Below are positions 6,798 to 47,326 of a DNA stretch of 64,000 nucleotides, piece by piece. The stretch is taken from the NCBI GenBank assembly GCA_016865035.1, contig CP018227.1, forward strand, positions 3,005,501 through 3,069,500, written 5' to 3'. The stretch comes from Kordiimonadales bacterium IMCC3096. GTDB lineage: Bacteria; Pseudomonadota; Alphaproteobacteria; Minwuiales; Minwuiaceae. The notes under the pieces are model-generated. The model had not been told where the DNA came from and did not search any database. It saw only the letters and a list, made by a program, of their open reading frames with translations. A program made the translations under genes and the position numbers. Position 1 is the stretch's first letter, and the number at the start of each line of letters is the position of its first letter.

Positions 6798-7796
6798 TCA
6801 GCGCAGTGCGAACTTCACGGGCACCACCAGTTCGAGCTGGCTCTGCGGCATGAAGTCCGGCATGGCGGGCAGGGGCTGGGCGCGCTGGATCATGGCCTCG
6901 ACTTCGGCGTCGAGCAGGGCGTGGCCGGAGCCCTTTTCGATGCGGAACTCCGTCACCCGCCCGTCGCGATCCATGCGGAAGAACAGCATCGCCGTGCCTT
7001 CCTGCCGTCGCCTTTGCGCCCGGCGGGGGTATTCCTTGTGGCGTTCCAGCCAGTTCAGCAGACGGGTGAGATAGTCCTGCCGCTCACCCGGACTGCCGCC
7101 GCCGGAGCGGGTGCCGCCCTGGCTGGACTTGCCGGCTCCGGACCGGTCACCGGAGCGGCCGCCACCACCGGTCACCAGCGCAGCCTGTTGCACTGCTTCA
7201 CCAGGGCCGCCCGTCCTGACCGCCTCGACGGCAGGCCCGGTCCGGGACGCCGGTGTCGTCACGTTCACGGCAGTCGCTTCCCTCGGTTCGGCGGTCTGAA
7301 CCACCTCCGGCCTCGGGCGCGGCACCGGGAGTGGTGGCGGCGAGACGGCGGCAACGGCCTCGGTCACCGGCTCCGGCGTTGCGTCGGCGGTTTCGATCCC
7401 TTCAGTGACAACCCTTGCCGCCGTCCCGGTCGGGCCTGTGGCTACAACCGGCTGCGGGGCAGGTGAAGTGGCTTCGGCCGGGGCGGGAACGGCGGCGGCC
7501 TCCGGTGCCGCGACGGCTGGCTCAGGTGCAGGCATGGCCTCGGCGACCGGTTCCGCGGTCACTGTTTCTGCCGTCTCCGGTGAGAGGGGGCCGGCTTCCG
7601 CTGGCACGCCTTCGACCTCCGCCACCTCGCCCAAGGCACCTCCCGAAGCGGCAAGGCCGACCTGCATGCCGGACACGCCGGGCAGGGGCGTGCCGCTGGT
7701 CGGTGCCTGCAACAGCATGGCGACGGCGATGGTCGCGTGAAGCAGCAGCGCCACGATCAGGGCCGGGAACCAGCCGGGGGGAGGGATGTGGTTCAT
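6798..7796 (-). CDS. tonB: TonB-family energy transducer
   Basis: A 332-residue TonB-like protein. A single N-terminal membrane anchor lies at about 10-30. A long periplasmic Ala/Pro/Glu/Val-rich spacer follows (about 60-210), then a low-complexity Gly/Ser region. The C-terminal TonB domain is at about 250-332 (YPRRAQRRRQEGTAMLFFRMDRDGRVTEFRIEKGSG, shown here only as its opening YPRRAQRRRQEG and the GRVTEF strand). It should carry proton-motive energy from ExbBD to outer-membrane receptors. The start overlaps the second exbD stop by 4 bases. No TonB-dependent receptor gene is in the window. Confidence 0.92.
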   Translation of the reverse strand: MNHIPPPGWFPALIVALLLHATIAVAMLLQAPTSGTPLPGVSGMQVGLAASGGALGEVAEVEGVPAEAGPLSPETAETVTAEPVAEAMPAPEPAVAAPEAAAVPAPAEATSPAPQPVVATGPTGTAARVVTEGIETADATPEPVTEAVAAVSPPPLPVPRPRPEVVQTAEPREATAVNVTTPASRTGPAVEAVRTGGPGEAVQQAALVTGGGGRSGDRSGAGKSSQGGTRSGGGSPGERQDYLTRLLNWLERHKEYPRRAQRRRQEGTAMLFFRMDRDGRVTEFRIEKGSGHALLDAEVEAMIQRAQPLPAMPDFMPQSQLELVVPVKFALR

Positions 7797-8194
7797 TCGC
7801 CTGCCGGGACGGTCAGCAATTGCATATCCGTCAGGTCGGCGCCACGCAGGCGCTCCATCAGGGCGATAACCCTGATCGCATCCACGGCACCGTCGGCCTT
7901 GACCCGGACTGTGGTCATCGGACTGCGCCCGAAAGCCTCGATCAATGCAGCCTCCGACAGCGGCAGCCCATCAAGCGCCAGTTGGCCCTGCCGGTCGATC
8001 AGGATCAGGTGCGTGTTCCTGTCGGGCGCCGCTTCGGTGACGGAATGCGGCGGGGTGACGGTGAAGGGATCGGTCGCGGAGAGGTGCCCCGCCACCATGA
8101 AGAAGATCAGCAGCAGGAAGACGACGTTGATCAGGGGCAGGACACGATCGTCGTCGTTGCGTGGACGCGTCCTGTGGATGCGGGCGAGGCTCAA
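7793..8194 (-). CDS. exbD: ExbD/TolR-family protein, second copy, lacking the essential Asp
   Basis: A 133-residue single-span ExbD-type protein. The membrane helix is at about 18-38. Its motif reads LPLINVVFLLLIFFM, with Asn23 where ExbD and TolR have the protonatable Asp (as in PLIDVVF of the neighbouring copy). The periplasmic part carries the usual VRVKADGAV strand. The start is a TTG overlapping the stop of the first exbD (TTGA), with GGAG 8 bases before it. It probably forms a heteromeric ExbD pair with the upstream copy. Confidence 0.9.
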   Translation of the reverse strand: MSLARIHRTRPRNDDDRVLPLINVVFLLLIFFMVAGHLSATDPFTVTPPHSVTEAAPDRNTHLILIDRQGQLALDGLPLSEAALIEAFGRSPMTTVRVKADGAVDAIRVIALMERLRGADLTDMQLLTVPAGE

Positions 8195-8622
8195 CGGTTC
8201 TGCTCCGGGCGGGCCAGGGAGATGTTCCGCATCCCGCTCCCGGCCAGGCGATCCAGCACAGTGATCGTGCGCTGCAGGGAAACGCCGTCCGCAGGACGCA
8301 CGATGAGGGGGCGGTCGGGGTGATCTTCAGCGACCTGTCTCAACCGTTCAACAATCAGGTTCAGGGACAGGATTTCGCCAGACAACCACAGCCCGTCGGC
8401 GCGGACATCCACCAGCATGGCACCGGTCAGCGCCTTTGCTGCGCCTGCCCTGGCGGGCGGATCGAGGTCGATGGCACGCCAGTCGAGAAAGGAGGAGGCG
8501 AGCATGAAGAAGACCAGCAGGATGAAGACGACATCGATCAGCGGTGTCAGGCTGATCAGTGCCCGACGGCGTCCGTCAGTCGCCGCCCTGAGCGACGGCG
8601 GCGGGGTGAAGATCGCCGACAT
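8191..8622 (-). CDS. exbD: ExbD/TolR-family biopolymer transport protein
   Basis: A 143-residue protein with one membrane helix at about 25-45 containing the conserved proton-carrying Asp30 (TPLIDVVFILLVFFM), then a periplasmic domain with the VRADG and RPLIVRPADG strands. The ATG at 8622 is preferred over 8637 because CGGAGG lies 6 bases before it. The gene overlaps the end of exbB by about 47 bases and the second exbD by 4, indicating tight translational coupling. Confidence 0.93.
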   Translation of the reverse strand: MSAIFTPPPSLRAATDGRRRALISLTPLIDVVFILLVFFMLASSFLDWRAIDLDPPARAGAAKALTGAMLVDVRADGLWLSGEILSLNLIVERLRQVAEDHPDRPLIVRPADGVSLQRTITVLDRLAGSGMRNISLARPEQNR

Positions 8623-9313
8623 GGGAAGCCTCCGCATGCTGTGCCGGTGGAAGGTTCTGGGTGAACAGGCGGGTGATGGCGCTGTCCGCCGTGTGGGCCA
8701 GCCGCTCGATCCGGCGCTCCAGCCAGTTCAGGGCCACGACCGCCGGGATGGCGACGGCGAGGCCCACCGCCGTGGTCAGCAGCGCCTCCCAGATGCCGCC
8801 CGACAGGATGGCCGGGTTGACCTGGTTGCCCGCGGCTTCCAGTTGGCGAAACGCCTCGATCATGCCCAGCACGGTGCCGAAAAGGCCGAGCAGGGGAGCG
8901 AGGGAGGCGATGACCTCCAGGGCGCGCAGGCCGGTGCGGCAGGCTTCGAGCGCGTCGGCGGCGCAGCGCATGGTTTCTGCCCGCACAACCTCCGGGTCCA
9001 TACCCTGCCGGATGCCGCGCATGGCGGCGGCGATTGTCGCGGCGAGCGGCCCGGTCGAACCCTGCAACCTTGTCACGGCCTCTCCCGTCCGGCCCGCCTG
9101 CCAGAGCGACAGGGCATCGCCGGTCATGGCTGCATCGGCGGAACGGATGCCGCGCAGTTGCCAGGCCTTGGCGAGCACGATGGCTGTTGCCGCGACCGAA
9201 ATGGCGATCAGCAGTGCCACCACGGGGCCGCCGGACTGGAGCATGGCCAGCAGATCGGCCAATGGTCCGTCCGGTGCAGCAGCGGAGGGCGGGAGGGTCA
9301 CTTCGGTCTGCAT
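8576..9313 (-). CDS. exbB: ExbB/TolQ-family proton channel
   Basis: A 245-residue MotA/TolQ/ExbB protein. The first membrane helix is at about 30-52 (VVALLIAISVAATAIVLAKAW). A cytoplasmic loop follows, then two helices at about 130-160 and 175-200 in the conserved core (LEVIASLAPLLGLFGTVLGMI; ALLTTAVGLAVAIPAVVALNWL). With ExbD it forms the inner-membrane motor for TonB. The absence of tolA, tolB or pal argues for a TonB rather than a Tol role. Confidence 0.94.
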   Translation of the reverse strand: MQTEVTLPPSAAAPDGPLADLLAMLQSGGPVVALLIAISVAATAIVLAKAWQLRGIRSADAAMTGDALSLWQAGRTGEAVTRLQGSTGPLAATIAAAMRGIRQGMDPEVVRAETMRCAADALEACRTGLRALEVIASLAPLLGLFGTVLGMIEAFRQLEAAGNQVNPAILSGGIWEALLTTAVGLAVAIPAVVALNWLERRIERLAHTADSAITRLFTQNLPPAQHAEASHVGDLHPAAVAQGGD

Positions 9314-9324
9314 CGGTTCGGCCC

Positions 9325-9750
9325 TTACTTGATCAGGGAAACGTCACTGCGGGAGGTCGTTCGTACCAGGGACAGGCAATCGTCACGCTCGCCGTTCTGG
9401 TCCGTGCATTCGAGGATGCCGTTCACCAGAATCCGCCCGATGCCGTCACAGGCGATCTCCGCCAGATCGAAGACCTTCAGACTCGTCTTGCCCGCGACCA
9501 GCGGCGCGGTCTCCAGCGCCAGTCGCCGGGTGACGATGCCGTCGGCATCGAAGATGACCAGGTCATAGCGCAGGGCGGAGAAGGCCGCGTCGGTATCGTT
9601 CTGCAGCACGACATAGGCGCGGCAGGCGCCCTCCACGGCTTCCAGCCTGTTCAGTTCCAGACCGATGCCCGGTTCACGCGTCTCCGCCCCGGAGGCGGCG
9701 GAAGCCGCGAAAAGGAACAGGCCGACCAGCGCGGTGCGGATGGAGATCAT
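9325..9750 (-). CDS. Conserved periplasmic protein of the exb-tonB operon, function unknown
   Basis: A 141-residue exported protein with a signal peptide at 1-21 (cleavage near AASGA-E). The mature part looks like a beta-sandwich (GIGLELNRLEAVEGACRAY, YDLVIFDADGIV) with four Cys residues that could form disulfides. I do not recognise a named domain. It is the first gene of the operon, 11 bases before exbB, so it is expressed with the motor and may be an accessory factor. Confidence 0.75.
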   Translation of the reverse strand: MISIRTALVGLFLFAASAASGAETREPGIGLELNRLEAVEGACRAYVVLQNDTDAAFSALRYDLVIFDADGIVTRRLALETAPLVAGKTSLKVFDLAEIACDGIGRILVNGILECTDQNGERDDCLSLVRTTSRSDVSLIK

Positions 9751-42330: not shown

Positions 42331-44463
42331 TCAGTTCGGCGAGACTGTTTCACGTTCCAGGATGCGCGCCACGCGATCCCAGCGTTCCTCCAGCGCGCGG
42401 TCGCGCGCGGTCTTGCCTTCGGCGTCGCGGATGTCGGGGCTTGCCCCCTGCTTCAGCAGGGCCAGTACCACATCCTCATGGCCGTTCCAGGCCGCACGCA
42501 TCAGGGGCGTCACACCCTCTTCGTCGGATGCATTCGGATCGGCGCTCTGGCTCAGCAGATCCTCGGTAATCGACGCGTAACCGTTGATCGCGGCCCAGGC
42601 CAGCGGCGTCCGCCCCTCGAAGTCCCTGGTATCGATATCGACACCCCGCTCGATCAGGAACTCCACCACCATTTCGCGCCCGCGCCATGATGCGGCGATG
42701 ATCGCGTCGCGCCCCGCGGCGTCGATGGCGTTGGGATCAGCCCCGGAGCGCAGCAGCACCTCGATCTGCTGCACGTTCCCGGCGGTCACGGCCTGCCTCA
42801 GGTCGCCATCAAGCTGGCGCTGCTGCGCCGGCGCGATGGACCGCTCGGTCTTCTCCTTCTCGATGAAGCGCCGCCAGCGGCCAGCCTCGATCTCGGCCTG
42901 CTGGCGTTCCTCCGCCGACATTTCCCTGTTCAGTTCCTTCACCGCACGCTTCGCCGTGCGGTTGCCTTCATCCGCGGCCATCTTCAGCAGCACGAATGCA
43001 CGCTTGCGGTCCTTTTCCACGCCGTCGCCGGTCAGATGCTTCTCCGCCAGGCGAACCTGCGCAGGCGGATAGCCGCGCTTCGCCAGCCGCTCCAGAATGT
43101 CGGCGGACTTCTTCGGATCCTTCTCCGTTCCCTTGCCCTCATCGATGGCCTTCGCGAGGTTGTACTCGGCGTGGGCATAGCCTTCTTCCGCAGCCCTGCG
43201 ATAGCGTTCGACCGCTGACTTCAGGCGCGCCTGCTCCGCATCGGACAGTGGCGCTTCCGGCTGCGGCGGTTTCTTCCGCTCCGGGACCTCTTGCGCAGCT
43301 TCCGGCGGTTCCGTTGTCGGCTCGGCGCTGGCAACGGAAGTCCGTGCGGCCTCGATCACGCGGTCGAGCGCGGCCACAGCGACCTTGCGGGATTTCTCCG
43401 CATCCGACAGGGCCGTCTCGGCGTCGGACCGGCTCTCCCGCGCCTTGTCGGTGGCACCTGCAGCTGCGGCGCGCTGCGCCCTGTCAGCCGCTGCCTGAGC
43501 CCGCTCCGCCGCTGCAGCCACGGCCTGTGCCGCATCCGATGCGTCGGCCAGTGCCTTGCGCACGGGCTGGGATGTCACGCGTGTCTCGGCGCGGGCGCGC
43601 AGGACCGCGGCGGTGGTTTCCTGCGCGATCTTCAATGCCTTGTCGGCGGCGGCTGCCGCACCTTCCGCCTCCAGCGTGGCGGCGGCAATGGCGGCATCCG
43701 GTGTCAGACGTGCCAGCTCCAGTTCCTGCAGGCGCTGCTTCAGTTCCGCCGCACGCGCGGCGGCGGCCTGGGCCTCCGCGTCCGTCGGGGCGGTCTTGGC
43801 GGCAAGCTCGGCCTGCGCCTGCAGGGCTTCCGTCCGGCGGATCTCGCGCTCTATCTCCGCCGGGTCAGACGGAATGTCCCTGACCGGCCGGGTGCCGCTC
43901 CGCCGCAGGTTGTCGGGCACCTTGACGATGCCGGCTTCCTCCTTCGGTGTCAGCGCAGGCCCCTTCTCGTAGACCAGGGACACGTCACCGGCGTTCGGGG
44001 CAACAGGGGCGGGTCCGGCGGAGGCCGGCCGTTCGTTGCGCCGTGCGGCCTCGATCGCGGCCTGGCGCACATCGGGCAGGGCGATCTCCGGGGTATCCTT
44101 CGGGGCCTCGACCGTTTTCGGCTCCGGCACCAGCACTTCCGTCGGCTTGGGCTCGGGTTCAGGCTCCGGCTCCGCCACGACGGGCTCCGGTTCCGGTTCG
44201 GCTTCCGTGACAGGGGCCGGATCCGGCAGCAGGTCCTTCTCGTCCACCAGCTCGACGGTCACCGGTTCCTGGTAGACGTCCGGAAAGACCTGAATGGAAA
44301 TCGGAAAGCCACCGATGTCGTCCGGCTGGCTGTCGAAGAGCTGTGGCGACGCGATCGCCAGACCGGCCAGCAGGGCGACATGACTGACCATGGCCACGGC
44401 GGTGCCGCGGCTGATGTTCTCGCCGAAGCTCAGGAAGACCGGTATGGCGCGCCGTGCAATCAT
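42331..44463 (-). CDS. TolA/TonB-like anchored protein with Sel1 and ankyrin repeats
   Basis: A 710-residue protein. Residues 1-20 are cytosolic and a single membrane helix lies at about 22-40, as in TonB and TolA. Then come a Pro/Glu-rich stretch (about 78-125, many EPEP units), an Ala-rich coiled coil (about 200-375) like the TolA stalk, a second Pro-rich linker (380-405), Sel1-like repeats (about 415-515) and four to five ankyrin repeats (about 550-705). There is no TonB C-domain. The domain order suggests a periplasm-spanning scaffold. It stands alone between a terminator and moaA. I know no named gene with this layout. Confidence 0.88.
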   Translation of the reverse strand: MIARRAIPVFLSFGENISRGTAVAMVSHVALLAGLAIASPQLFDSQPDDIGGFPISIQVFPDVYQEPVTVELVDEKDLLPDPAPVTEAEPEPEPVVAEPEPEPEPKPTEVLVPEPKTVEAPKDTPEIALPDVRQAAIEAARRNERPASAGPAPVAPNAGDVSLVYEKGPALTPKEEAGIVKVPDNLRRSGTRPVRDIPSDPAEIEREIRRTEALQAQAELAAKTAPTDAEAQAAAARAAELKQRLQELELARLTPDAAIAAATLEAEGAAAAADKALKIAQETTAAVLRARAETRVTSQPVRKALADASDAAQAVAAAAERAQAAADRAQRAAAAGATDKARESRSDAETALSDAEKSRKVAVAALDRVIEAARTSVASAEPTTEPPEAAQEVPERKKPPQPEAPLSDAEQARLKSAVERYRRAAEEGYAHAEYNLAKAIDEGKGTEKDPKKSADILERLAKRGYPPAQVRLAEKHLTGDGVEKDRKRAFVLLKMAADEGNRTAKRAVKELNREMSAEERQQAEIEAGRWRRFIEKEKTERSIAPAQQRQLDGDLRQAVTAGNVQQIEVLLRSGADPNAIDAAGRDAIIAASWRGREMVVEFLIERGVDIDTRDFEGRTPLAWAAINGYASITEDLLSQSADPNASDEEGVTPLMRAAWNGHEDVVLALLKQGASPDIRDAEGKTARDRALEERWDRVARILERETVSPN

Positions 44464-44613
44464 GGGACGGTTCGGGGCACTTTCGTTCCGAATTGCATCA
44501 AATCAGGTGGTTACGCGATCCATGTCGCTAACCAGAACCCTGAACAAGCAATTTGTATGCCCCCGGTCCGTGGCGTGTTCAAGGACGGAAACCGCCACGC
44601 TGGCCTGGTGATC

Positions 44614-45603
44614 TCAGCCGCCCGTGACGCTCATGTGCCGTGACACGGCAGGCTGCTTCTCGCGGCGGTCGATGATGAAGTCATGCCCCTTCGGCTTCCG
44701 CCCGATGGCCTCATCGATCGTCGCGTCCAGCAGCGCCCCGCTGGGGTCCGTCCTGAGCGCGGTGCGCAGGTCGGCGGCATCATCCTGCCCCAGGCACATG
44801 TAGAGCGTGCCGGTGCAGGTCAGTCGGACCCGGTTGCAGCTCTCGCAGAAATTATGGGTCATCGGCGTGATGAAACCGAGACGCTGTCCGGTTTCCTCGA
44901 CGATGGTATAGCGGGCCGGACCGCCGGTCGAATAGTCGGTGTCGCGCAGGGTCCAGTCGTTCTGCAGCCGCGCCCTGACCAGAGACAGCGGCAGATACTG
45001 GTCGGTCCGGTCGCCGTCGATGTCCCCCAGCGGCATCGTCTCGATCAGGCACAGATCAAAGCCCTGGGAGCCGCACCAGCCAACCATGTCGCTGATCTCG
45101 TCCTCGTTGACGCCCTTCAGCGCCACGGCGTTCACCTTGACGTGCAGGCCGGCTTCCTTGGCGGCTCGCAGTCCGTCCTGCACCTTCTCCAGGCTGCCCC
45201 AGCGGGTGATGCGCTGGAAGTTCTCCGGATCAAGTGTATCGATGGAGACGTTGATGCGACGGACCCCGGCATTGCGCAGATCGTCGGCGAAGCGGGGCAG
45301 CTGACTGCCGTTCGTGGTCAGTGTCAGCTCTTCCAGATCACCGGTCTTCAGGTGGCGACCCAGACCGCGAAACAGTTCCATCACGTTCTTCCGGACCAGC
45401 GGTTCCCCGCCGGTCACGCGCAGCTTCCGCACGCCCTTGGCGACAAAGGCGGAGCAGACACGGTCCAGTTCCTCCAGCGAAAGCAGGTCCGATTTCGGCA
45501 GGAATGTCATGTGCTCCGACATGCAGTAGACACAGCGGAAGTCACAGCGGTCCGTCACGGAGACTCGCAGATAGGTCACGGCGCGCCCGAATGGATCAAT
45601 CAC
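44614..45603 (-). CDS. moaA: GTP 3',8-cyclase MoaA (molybdenum cofactor synthesis)
   Basis: A 329-residue radical-SAM enzyme making 3',8-cyclo-GTP, the first step of molybdopterin synthesis. The SAM cluster is C20-x3-C24-x2-C27 (RCDFRCVYC). TGGEPL follows. The second cluster ligands are in [14 protein letters not shown]. The C-terminus ends in the expected Gly-Gly. The start is GTG at 45603. No other moa genes are nearby. Confidence 0.97.
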
Positions 45604-45681
45604 GGCAATCTTGTCCCGGTTCCAGGTTGGACCTGAGATATTGCGCGCGTGAACGGTCGAGTAAAGGAAGAACTGCCGTGA

Positions 45682-46821
45682 TCAGCCCTTGGCACCAAGC
45701 TGATTGAGGGCCGCGAGATACTCGGGATCCTGCCGCCAGCGCCGCACGACGGCAATGGCGTCATTGGGTGTCATGCCTTCATAGAACTGTTGCAGCCGCA
45801 GCCGGTCGTTCGCGATCTGGCGCGCCAGCATGCCGCGCGCAACCCGGGTCAGTTCATAGATCGTGAGAAAGATCTGACGGTCGAAATCAAGCGCACGACA
45901 GACGATGGCAAGGGCCTCGCCGCCGGGTTCATAGATCATGCGCCGCATCAGTTCGGGGCGCATTCCCGCGATCCGGGCGAGGGAATATTCGAACAGGCTG
46001 ACTTCCCCCTGGCGCAGCGCCTTCACCGAGAAGGCGGCGTTGAGCTGGCCGGCGGCATGAAGTTTCTCCACCAGCCTCTGCGAAGGGTCGGTCACCTCCA
46101 CCTCTCCGGTTGTCTCCTGGACGGCGTCCCGCATCGCGTTCAGCATCGTGTCATCCAGCTCCGACACATCGAAGGTATAGTTATCGACGATGTACTGGCG
46201 CAGCGCGGCCGAGACCCAGGCGAACATGCGCTTGGCAAGCGCCTTGGGCAGGTCCGGACGACGCAGCAGCGGCTTCTGGTAGCGATCCACGCGCTGTGAT
46301 TCCGCCACCAGATGCTCCAGCAGGGCATCGGAGATCTGCGCGGTATCGTTTTCCAGCAGGGCCTCGACCACATCCTCGTTGCCGGTCTCGACCAGCGCGC
46401 CGGCCACGGCCTCCGAGATATTGCTGCGCATGGCTGTCGCAAGCTGATGCTGCAGGGTGCGATGGCGCACCACCTCGATCAGGTCCGCATCGCGCAGCGC
46501 CCTGTTGTCCATCAGGATCGGATAGGCGACCTCGATCTGGTCGTTGGCCAGCATGGCCGCCAGTTCCATCGGCGCATCCGCCATCTCGTTCAGCCGGATA
46601 GCCAGCCGCTTGCGGACGCTCATCTCCACGTCATGGCTCAGACGGCGCAGGATGTCGGTCATCAGCTTGCGCTCGCTGCCCGTCAGCGTCTCGCCTTCGG
46701 TCTCGAAGAGATTCCAGATGTCCTCATACAACTGCGCCCGGCCCTCACGGCTCTTGCGCTGTGCGAGGTCAAACAGATTGGCTATGCCTGACTTTGGCTC
46801 TGCTGCTGCGGTATCAGCCAT
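45682..46821 (-). CDS. DUF2336-family protein
   Basis: A 379-residue helical, HEAT-like protein of the DUF2336 family, found mainly in alphaproteobacteria. Repeating helix pairs (SVRKRLAIRLNEM, VAYPILMDNRALRDADLIEVV, VAGALVETGNEDVVEALLEN) are visible. Function is unknown, but these genes often lie beside receiver proteins, as here. GAGGAG precedes the ATG at 46821. Confidence 0.9.
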   Translation of the reverse strand: MADTAAAEPKSGIANLFDLAQRKSREGRAQLYEDIWNLFETEGETLTGSERKLMTDILRRLSHDVEMSVRKRLAIRLNEMADAPMELAAMLANDQIEVAYPILMDNRALRDADLIEVVRHRTLQHQLATAMRSNISEAVAGALVETGNEDVVEALLENDTAQISDALLEHLVAESQRVDRYQKPLLRRPDLPKALAKRMFAWVSAALRQYIVDNYTFDVSELDDTMLNAMRDAVQETTGEVEVTDPSQRLVEKLHAAGQLNAAFSVKALRQGEVSLFEYSLARIAGMRPELMRRMIYEPGGEALAIVCRALDFDRQIFLTIYELTRVARGMLARQIANDRLRLQQFYEGMTPNDAIAVVRRWRQDPEYLAALNQLGAKG

Positions 46822-46936
46822 CTTGACGCTCCTCGAAGGACATACGCCCTCATTTATCAACATCGAAGTTAACAATGTGTTCCCGTTGGGAAATCCATGT
46901 CGGCAGCGCGTTGCCACATGCAACGGATGCCATGTT

Positions 46937-47326
46937 TCAGCCCAGCGCCCGGCGCACGAAATCCAGGATCGCAGGCAGGGGCAGAGGCTTTTCGAGCACG
47001 GCAAAGGCGACCGTGGCGTCGCGATTGGCTTCGACAAGGGACGCCGCATGACCAGAAATCAGGATGATCCGCGTTGCGGGCACCGCGCGCTTGATCAGTC
47101 GGGCCGTCTCCATGCCATCCAGTCCCGGCATCTGGACATCCAGCAGCACGACATGCGGGCGCAGGCGCTTCGCGGTGTTGACCCCGGCGAAACCATTGGA
47201 CTCGGCGCGCGCGGTCAATCCACCGTGGCGCAGGTAGCTGACGACCGTCTGCGCACCGTCGATGTCATCATCGATCACCAGCACCGACAGCTGGCCCTCA
47301 CCACTGCCCTGTCTTCCCTTGGCCAT
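46937..47326 (-). CDS. Single-domain response regulator (CheY-like receiver)
   Basis: A 129-residue stand-alone receiver. Acidic pocket DDD at 19-21, phosphoacceptor Asp63 (LLDVQMPGLDG), Ser91 and Lys113 (EKPLPL). It has no output domain, so it probably relays a signal to a partner. It lies upstream of the DUF2336 gene on the same strand, 115 bases away, and is divergent from a MarR-type regulator. Confidence 0.93.
   Translation of the reverse strand: MAKGRQGSGEGQLSVLVIDDDIDGAQTVVSYLRHGGLTARAESNGFAGVNTAKRLRPHVVLLDVQMPGLDGMETARLIKRAVPATRIILISGHAASLVEANRDATVAFAVLEKPLPLPAILDFVRRALG

Follow-up and report, generated by a model that had tools for sequence, protein, structure and literature searches.

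The 64,000-nucleotide stretch of contig CP018227.1 of Kordiimonadales bacterium IMCC3096 that was analysed here (the window) encodes a protein that begins like TolA or TonB and ends in Sel1 and ankyrin repeats, which raises the question of what this arm would hold in the envelope and whether a motor drives it. Tol and Ton motors are usually regarded as one motor serving one arm. The reading that we favor, with slightly more confidence than doubt, is that the protein acts as a TolA-like transducer coupled to the proton motive force (PMF) with a Sel1-ankyrin tip, apparently as a second client of TolQR. An inner-membrane anchor with the SHLS register would dock on a proton motor of 5:2 stoichiometry, for which TolQR is the likeliest candidate. 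Immediately beyond the membrane, a short strand would meet the TolR or ExbD dimer, and a stalk of variable length would cross the periplasm. The Sel1-ankyrin solenoid would grip a conserved envelope partner via a groove lined by Trp, Arg and Asn, and this partner would be pulled or freed by the flow of protons. The broader proposal, that these proteins are proton-driven periplasmic arms of a third kind, found in many alphaproteobacteria, competing with TolA for the TolQ groove and pulling an envelope partner by an ankyrin solenoid with no beta-strand addition, is held more tentatively, with doubt slightly outweighing confidence.

The architecture of the protein was computed directly and runs from an N-terminal helix through a Pro/Glu-rich linker and an Ala-rich helical stalk to two Sel1 and four ankyrin repeats (Table 1). 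Pfam gathering scores for both the Sel1 and the ankyrin superfamily were passed, with matches to Ank_2 (E = 2e-25, 89.5 bits, cut-off 27.3), Sel1 (E = 2e-12, 47.4 bits, cut-off 30.7), Ank and Ank_4, and the Pfam search found neither a TonB_C or TolA domain (E up to 0.01) nor a vWA domain. The preliminary description of the locus, which placed Sel1 and ankyrin repeats at the end of the protein instead of a TonB domain, was thus borne out, as was its EPEP-rich segment, with EPEP runs at about residues 81-118. All seven sampled genomes of the genus match the gene over almost its whole length, two of them as two pieces of one frame; this conservation, with relatives found across the class, rules out a chance frame. 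The full-length AlphaFold2 model had a mean pLDDT of 72.6, with most of residues 1-194 below 50, and the Sel1-ankyrin part a mean of 93.4.

Table 1. Position and basis of the features discussed; coordinates refer to the window unless a locus is named.
Feature	Position	Strand	Residues	Details and basis
TolA-like Sel1-ankyrin protein	42331..44463	-	710 aa	ATG start; ORF, Pfam, orthologs
Membrane anchor	44338..44406	-	20-42	A24-x3-H28-x6-L35-x3-S39-P40; SHLS register, first Ser replaced by Ala
Motor-box/R-box-like strand	44284..44307	-	53-60	FPISIQVF; beta 7-mer scan
Pro/Glu-rich linker	44110..44223	-	81-118	Sequence
Ala-rich helical stalk	43327..43863	-	201-379	Composition, AlphaFold2
Two Sel1 repeats	42961..43176	-	430-501	Second by Pfam, first from model and relatives
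Four ankyrin repeats	42343..42810	-	552-707	Pfam, AlphaFold2
Conserved Trp/Arg/Asn	42481..42687	-	593-661	W593 R594 G595, W623, R656 AAWNG 661; successive repeats
moaA	44614..45603	-		Co-directional upstream neighbor; Pfam
DUF2336 gene	45682..47049	-		Upstream of moaA; Pfam
exbB-exbD-exbD-tonB	6798-9313	-		Two different ExbD genes
Unanchored paralogs, C-terminal hydrophobic helix	L035 3851-5377; L037 3740-5224; L041 3545-5167; L042 1614-3143; L046 3698-5200
Unanchored paralogs, no C-terminal hydrophobic helix	L039 1410-2720; L043 3528-4799

According to the available text of three reports, the docking motif is defined as Ser-x3-His-x6-Leu-x3-Ser, and its Ser and His contact a Ser and a Trp in TM1 of ExbB or TolQ (PMC12215075, PMC8928145, PMC12905483). 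The most hydrophobic 19-mer of the window protein spans residues 20-38 (1.88, the best after residue 90 being 0.93), and this helix keeps the His, Leu, Ser and Pro of the register with Ala for the first Ser, while two orthologs (L004 and L005) have all four SHLS residues. When the stretch was selected by hydrophobicity alone, it contained a His in 29 of a first set of 30 relatives; the thirtieth (L058) has a second helix of greater hydrophobicity, and its anchor was selected by eye. SxxxH occurs in 24 of these 30, against a mean of 2.8 and a maximum of 9 in 2000 shuffles. Eleven later finds extended the set to 41 anchors, aligned on the His, which is therefore given by construction. Ten of these (L124-L133) were found by the HMM of the C-terminal domain, outside the first relatives search, and all ten have SxxxH; in L125, which has a more hydrophobic helix further on, it was read by eye. 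Ser stands at -4 in 35 of the aligned anchors and Ala in the other six, with Pro at +12 in 28; the proteins encoded after the stator genes in these genomes give 24/24 for Ser and 22/24 for Pro. This comparison set comprises 24 proteins from 23 family genomes, identified as TolA by position, among which L144 may be TonB.

Control segments set these counts in context. SxxxH-x11-P was found in 23 of the 41 anchors and in none of 287 control membrane segments (290 before three family frames were removed), six of which have SxxxH alone. SxxxH also occurs in 4 of 38 N-terminal hydrophobic stretches of other ORFs, and in 2 of 20 other Sel1 proteins from four family genomes (20 frames read, some five more left out), both times near the start of an apparent cleavable signal peptide. 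An HMM of 23 TolA-position anchors separated the family from the controls with an AUC of 0.93, 24 of the 41 anchors scoring above every control (family median 10.2 bits, control median -1.2, best control 7.2). The window anchor scored -1.2 bits, the control median, and L004 and L005 only 4.0 and 3.3 bits despite a complete SHLS. The motif and its register are thus observed across the family, and the sequence argument for docking carries less weight for the window copy than for the family, where it is strong. Left out of the anchor counts were L030 and L048, truncated at the 5' end by the contig, L057 with its interrupted frame, four unanchored proteins (L037, L042, L046 and L134), the first copy in each of L035, L039, L041 and L043, and L026-L029 and L051, which are repeat contigs; for the interrupted frames of L033 and L050, the anchor was taken from the upstream piece alone. 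In L058 (3011-4852) and L125 (3948-5600, minus strand frame), additional hydrophobic helices lie between the SxxxH helix and the Sel1-ankyrin part.

The family shows an N-in charge bias, net charge being higher before the helix than after it in 36 of the 41 anchored relatives and equal in four. Together with the motif common to TolA, this bias agrees with the N-terminal membrane anchor of the preliminary description, and the resulting N-in/C-out orientation with its placement of the repeats in the periplasm on a spacer. Among the 49 family proteins whose N-terminus could be read, eight have no TolA-type anchor; by eye they resemble signal-peptide proteins, which would also place the repeats in the periplasm. 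In a marine lineage, the paralog directly behind moaA has an apparent signal peptide instead of a TolA-type anchor, and the signal-peptide-type paralogs of this lineage are tandem or moaA-adjacent copies. A tree was calculated from which the script dropped the short rows L134, L135 and the first piece of L036, and from which L048, L057 and re-fetched copies had been excluded beforehand. A branch within the anchored family (support 78/81; 74% of 200 bootstrap trees) separates seven unanchored rows from the others, corresponding to a single change. The eighth, L134, comes from another family and, being short, is absent from the tree; two or more losses of the anchor are therefore probable. The simplest reading of these sequences puts the repeats in the periplasm and takes the anchored state as the older one.

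These observations bear on whether the arm is driven at all. As a passive scaffold, a helix derived from TolA or TonB, or merely similar to theirs, would tether a Sel1-ankyrin adaptor with no motor drive. This would fit the six anchors that lack the first Ser, the window's among them, and the loci read, where neither tolQR nor exbBD was seen beside the family gene; the unanchored relatives, five of which end in a C-terminal helix, also indicate that the repeats can work unanchored. We nevertheless regard a purely passive role as rather unlikely, since Ser-x3-His holds its position while the surrounding helix varies widely, a buried His would be needless in a passive anchor, and seven of the eight unanchored copies go back to one change inside the anchored tree.

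Alternatively, the helix of the window lineage could be a cleaved signal peptide that releases a soluble periplasmic protein, either a free adaptor or an ExoR-like regulator. The preliminary description depended on this helix being an anchor, and no evidence to the contrary was found, yet the window copy has AIA-S after the hydrophobic core, so that cleavage is possible; a weak NCBIfam ExoR match (E = 0.0013) and the soluble-looking paralogs L039, L043 and L134 point the same way. We judge release to be improbable, given the long n-region and the retained His register. Moreover, the AxA pattern after the core, present in 7 of the 41 family anchors and absent from 34, occurs in 4 of the 24 TolA-position proteins as well.

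If the arm is driven as we favor, the distribution of stator genes points to TolQR. A strong TolQ-like gene was found in all 23 family genomes scanned (E at most 2.3e-35), with the Ser-x3-Trp pattern in 21 of 24 TolQ-like frames, and an ExbD/TolR gene in all 27. Exactly one ExbD/TolR gene is present in 18 of the 27, where it adjoins a strong TolQ match and a protein with an SxxxH anchor follows downstream of the stator pair. TolQR is therefore the likeliest motor, being the only stator of this type found in most scanned genomes, where incompleteness of the MAGs could hide a second; this departs from the preliminary description, which had named ExbBD. Motor binding, energisation and the identity of the motor are all what we infer from such patterns.

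The window genome has, besides TolQR (L091), the exbB-exbD-exbD-tonB cluster of Table 1, whose TonB anchor reads VALLLH (AxxxH), likewise with Ala in place of the Ser, and whose ExbB TM1 lacks the Ser-x3-Trp pattern. ExbBD rather than TolQR as the driver in this species is nonetheless very improbable. A tracking of Ser or Ala in the docking motif with a second, ExbB-type stator is broken within the genus by G005, which has Ser and three ExbD genes, and G004 has Ser with one ExbD gene; moreover, 18 of the 27 family genomes lack a second ExbD. Just upstream of exbB, a 141-residue ORF with a signal-peptide-like start (window 9325-9750, minus strand) is a possible accessory protein.

Beyond the anchor, a predicted strand past the helix is reported for 93% of 113 TolA sequences in the available text of PMC12204202. 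In the window protein, the best beta 7-mer starts 27 residues past the His and does not stand out significantly from shuffles of the same sequence (p = 0.58); residues 67-73 (PVTVELV) are another strand-like stretch. The FPISIQVF stretch presumably resembles the D-box of E. coli TonB. The best 7-mer lies 21-32 residues past the His in 29 of the 41 relatives, six of them (L044 and its kin) not strand-like in appearance, and elsewhere in 12, compared with 24-27 residues in all 24 TolA-position proteins. Shuffles were beaten at p < 0.05 by 4 of the 41 relatives and by only 9 of the 24 TolA-position proteins, which indicates that the test has little power. These positions are suggestive of a motor-box-like strand after the anchor in many relatives.

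The segment between linker and tip was previously described as an Ala-rich coiled coil. The Ala content holds (34% in residues 201-395), and AlphaFold2 places helices at 201-224, 228-252, 255-293, 299-334 and 338-379, split by short turns, but a coiled coil is not supported, given the absence of a heptad signal in the stalk of the window protein and the orthologs in G003 and G006, from which most of the segment is missing. Stalk length and composition also differ among relatives; in anchored relatives with the start present, the part before Sel1 ranges from 92 residues (L008, an anchored protein with about 90 residues in front of Sel1) to 564 (L047), which makes the stalk look like a spacer; the short arm of L008 counts against the favored reading.

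In the tips of 48 family rows, AxWRG occurs in 46, WxxxNG in 48 and R[AS][AS]WNG in 45, compared with a Trp at the matching repeat position in 4 of 59 repeats from other ankyrin proteins, counted with a simple pattern. The RAAWNG count is partly circular, as L[MI]RAAWNG was one seed of the relatives search; among 11 members found by the HMM, RAAWNG occurs in 7 and both WRG and WxxxNG in all 11, by eye. The conservation of these repeat positions is thus observed computationally, and the same positions being fixed on successive repeats suggests a fixed partner. In the ankyrin fold in general, such positions face one groove, and those conserved in the tip would accordingly line one. The first 50 matches listed by Foldseek against the PDB were mostly designed ankyrin proteins and fusions, aligned with the ankyrin half. 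The reading of the protein as an ankyrin effector or a host-interaction factor, whether cytoplasmic or secreted, deserves almost no credence, as the repeats match ankyrin effector models of type IV secretion systems (T4SS, NCBIfam) at 11.5-66.6 bits against cut-offs of 500-1400, the Dot/Icm equivalog at most at 66.6 against 600, the N-in/C-out anchor is conserved, and the moaA linkage extends across the class.

Compared with TolA, the family shares the N-in helix, the SHLS register with the following Pro, a low-complexity or helical domain II and a periplasmic tip, and perhaps the position of an R-box-like strand; it differs in that this tip is Sel1-ankyrin rather than the TolA C-domain and that the gene lies outside the tol-pal operon, while a TolA-position protein behind tolQR is also kept in each of the 23 family genomes scanned. 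The likeness to TonB comprises the anchor type, the strand-like stretch and the Pro/Glu-rich linker, with a weak NCBIfam TonB match at residues 22-156 (E = 7e-4, 19.5 bits against a cut-off of 315), whereas the window protein lacks TonB_C and its gene is not beside exbBD. With the SHLS helix present in the family (first Ser in 35/41) and no C-terminal TonB_C or TolA domain in the window protein, this protein falls outside TolA/TonB at the C-domain and may plausibly work like TolA.

The closest published principle is that of the vWA-tipped transducers reported in 2025, which, in the available text, have an SHLS helix, a motor-box strand, a linker and a non-TonB globular tip, and are linked to tolQR-like genes (PMC12204202). 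The helix, the linker and a non-TonB tip are shared with the family, as the strand may be, and the family differs in its Sel1-ankyrin tip and moaA linkage from the vWA tip and tolQR-like linkage of that report; the window protein, with no vWA domain and with moaA and DUF2336 as neighbors, is not one of them. The terms ankyrin and Sel1 are absent from the main text of PMC12204202, and no description of a TolA- or TonB-like arm with a Sel1-ankyrin tip was found in the literature searched. The earlier statement that no such system is described thus holds, within that literature, for the Sel1-ankyrin tip and not for the principle, since a non-TonB tip on an SHLS helix had already been published for the vWA proteins.

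Sel1-like repeats as protein-binding modules are shared with ExoR and RgsF of Sinorhizobium, of which, in the available text, RgsF is predicted to be periplasmic and ExoR binds ExoS, and the family differs from them by its TolA-type anchor and by ankyrin repeats, which go unmentioned there (PMC7327166). Periplasmic ankyrin repeats have a further precedent, to which the family may be compared. AnkB of Pseudomonas is a periplasmic ankyrin protein, to our knowledge with no stalk, Sel1 repeats or SHLS anchor.

If the favored reading of a TolQR-driven arm is correct, the family may represent a second, previously undescribed use of the TolA/TonB-type proton motor in the cell. With one TolQR stator and two arms of the SHLS type in a genome, motor sharing and the stator's choice of arm would become directly testable. 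TolA and TonB grip by beta-strand addition; an ankyrin tip would bear force in a different way, and the conserved Trp, Arg and Asn positions of the tip could serve as bait for finding the envelope partner.

The domain search and the distribution of the architecture, which the preliminary description had proposed as checks, gave Sel1 and ankyrin matches in Pfam and a family present in 25 of 385 sampled alphaproteobacterial genomes, or 15 of 276 genera (HMM of the C-terminal domain built from 18 sequences, E up to 1e-40). In a phylum-wide sample, the window's own genome was the only one of 398 with a family gene. After the seven genus genomes, the next best match (G024) belongs to another family, and the closest named loci are in Minwuia MAGs. 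The relatives search gave 65 loci, of which 33 (L026-L058) were read for anchors; the other 32 (L059-L090) are partial, mostly weaker matches and were left out of the anchor reading. L077 is apparently the same place as L135, and L065 and L067 may be broken family members, L067 with moaA upstream.

The gene neighborhood is likewise conserved, with moaA as the co-directional upstream gene in 30 of the 43 loci, window included, that have at least 450 bases upstream (five of 48, L030, L036, L047, L048 and L126, are shorter). This linkage suggests no obvious envelope role, which counts against the favored reading. The family frame opens a few bases past the moaA stop in several loci, and the order DUF2336-moaA-family gene (window 42331-47049) is the same in L138 and L140, spanning Minwuia and distant MAGs. 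In L032 (1793-2923) and L040 (1904-2983), a gene that by eye resembles LigB-type dioxygenases lies between moaA and the family gene.
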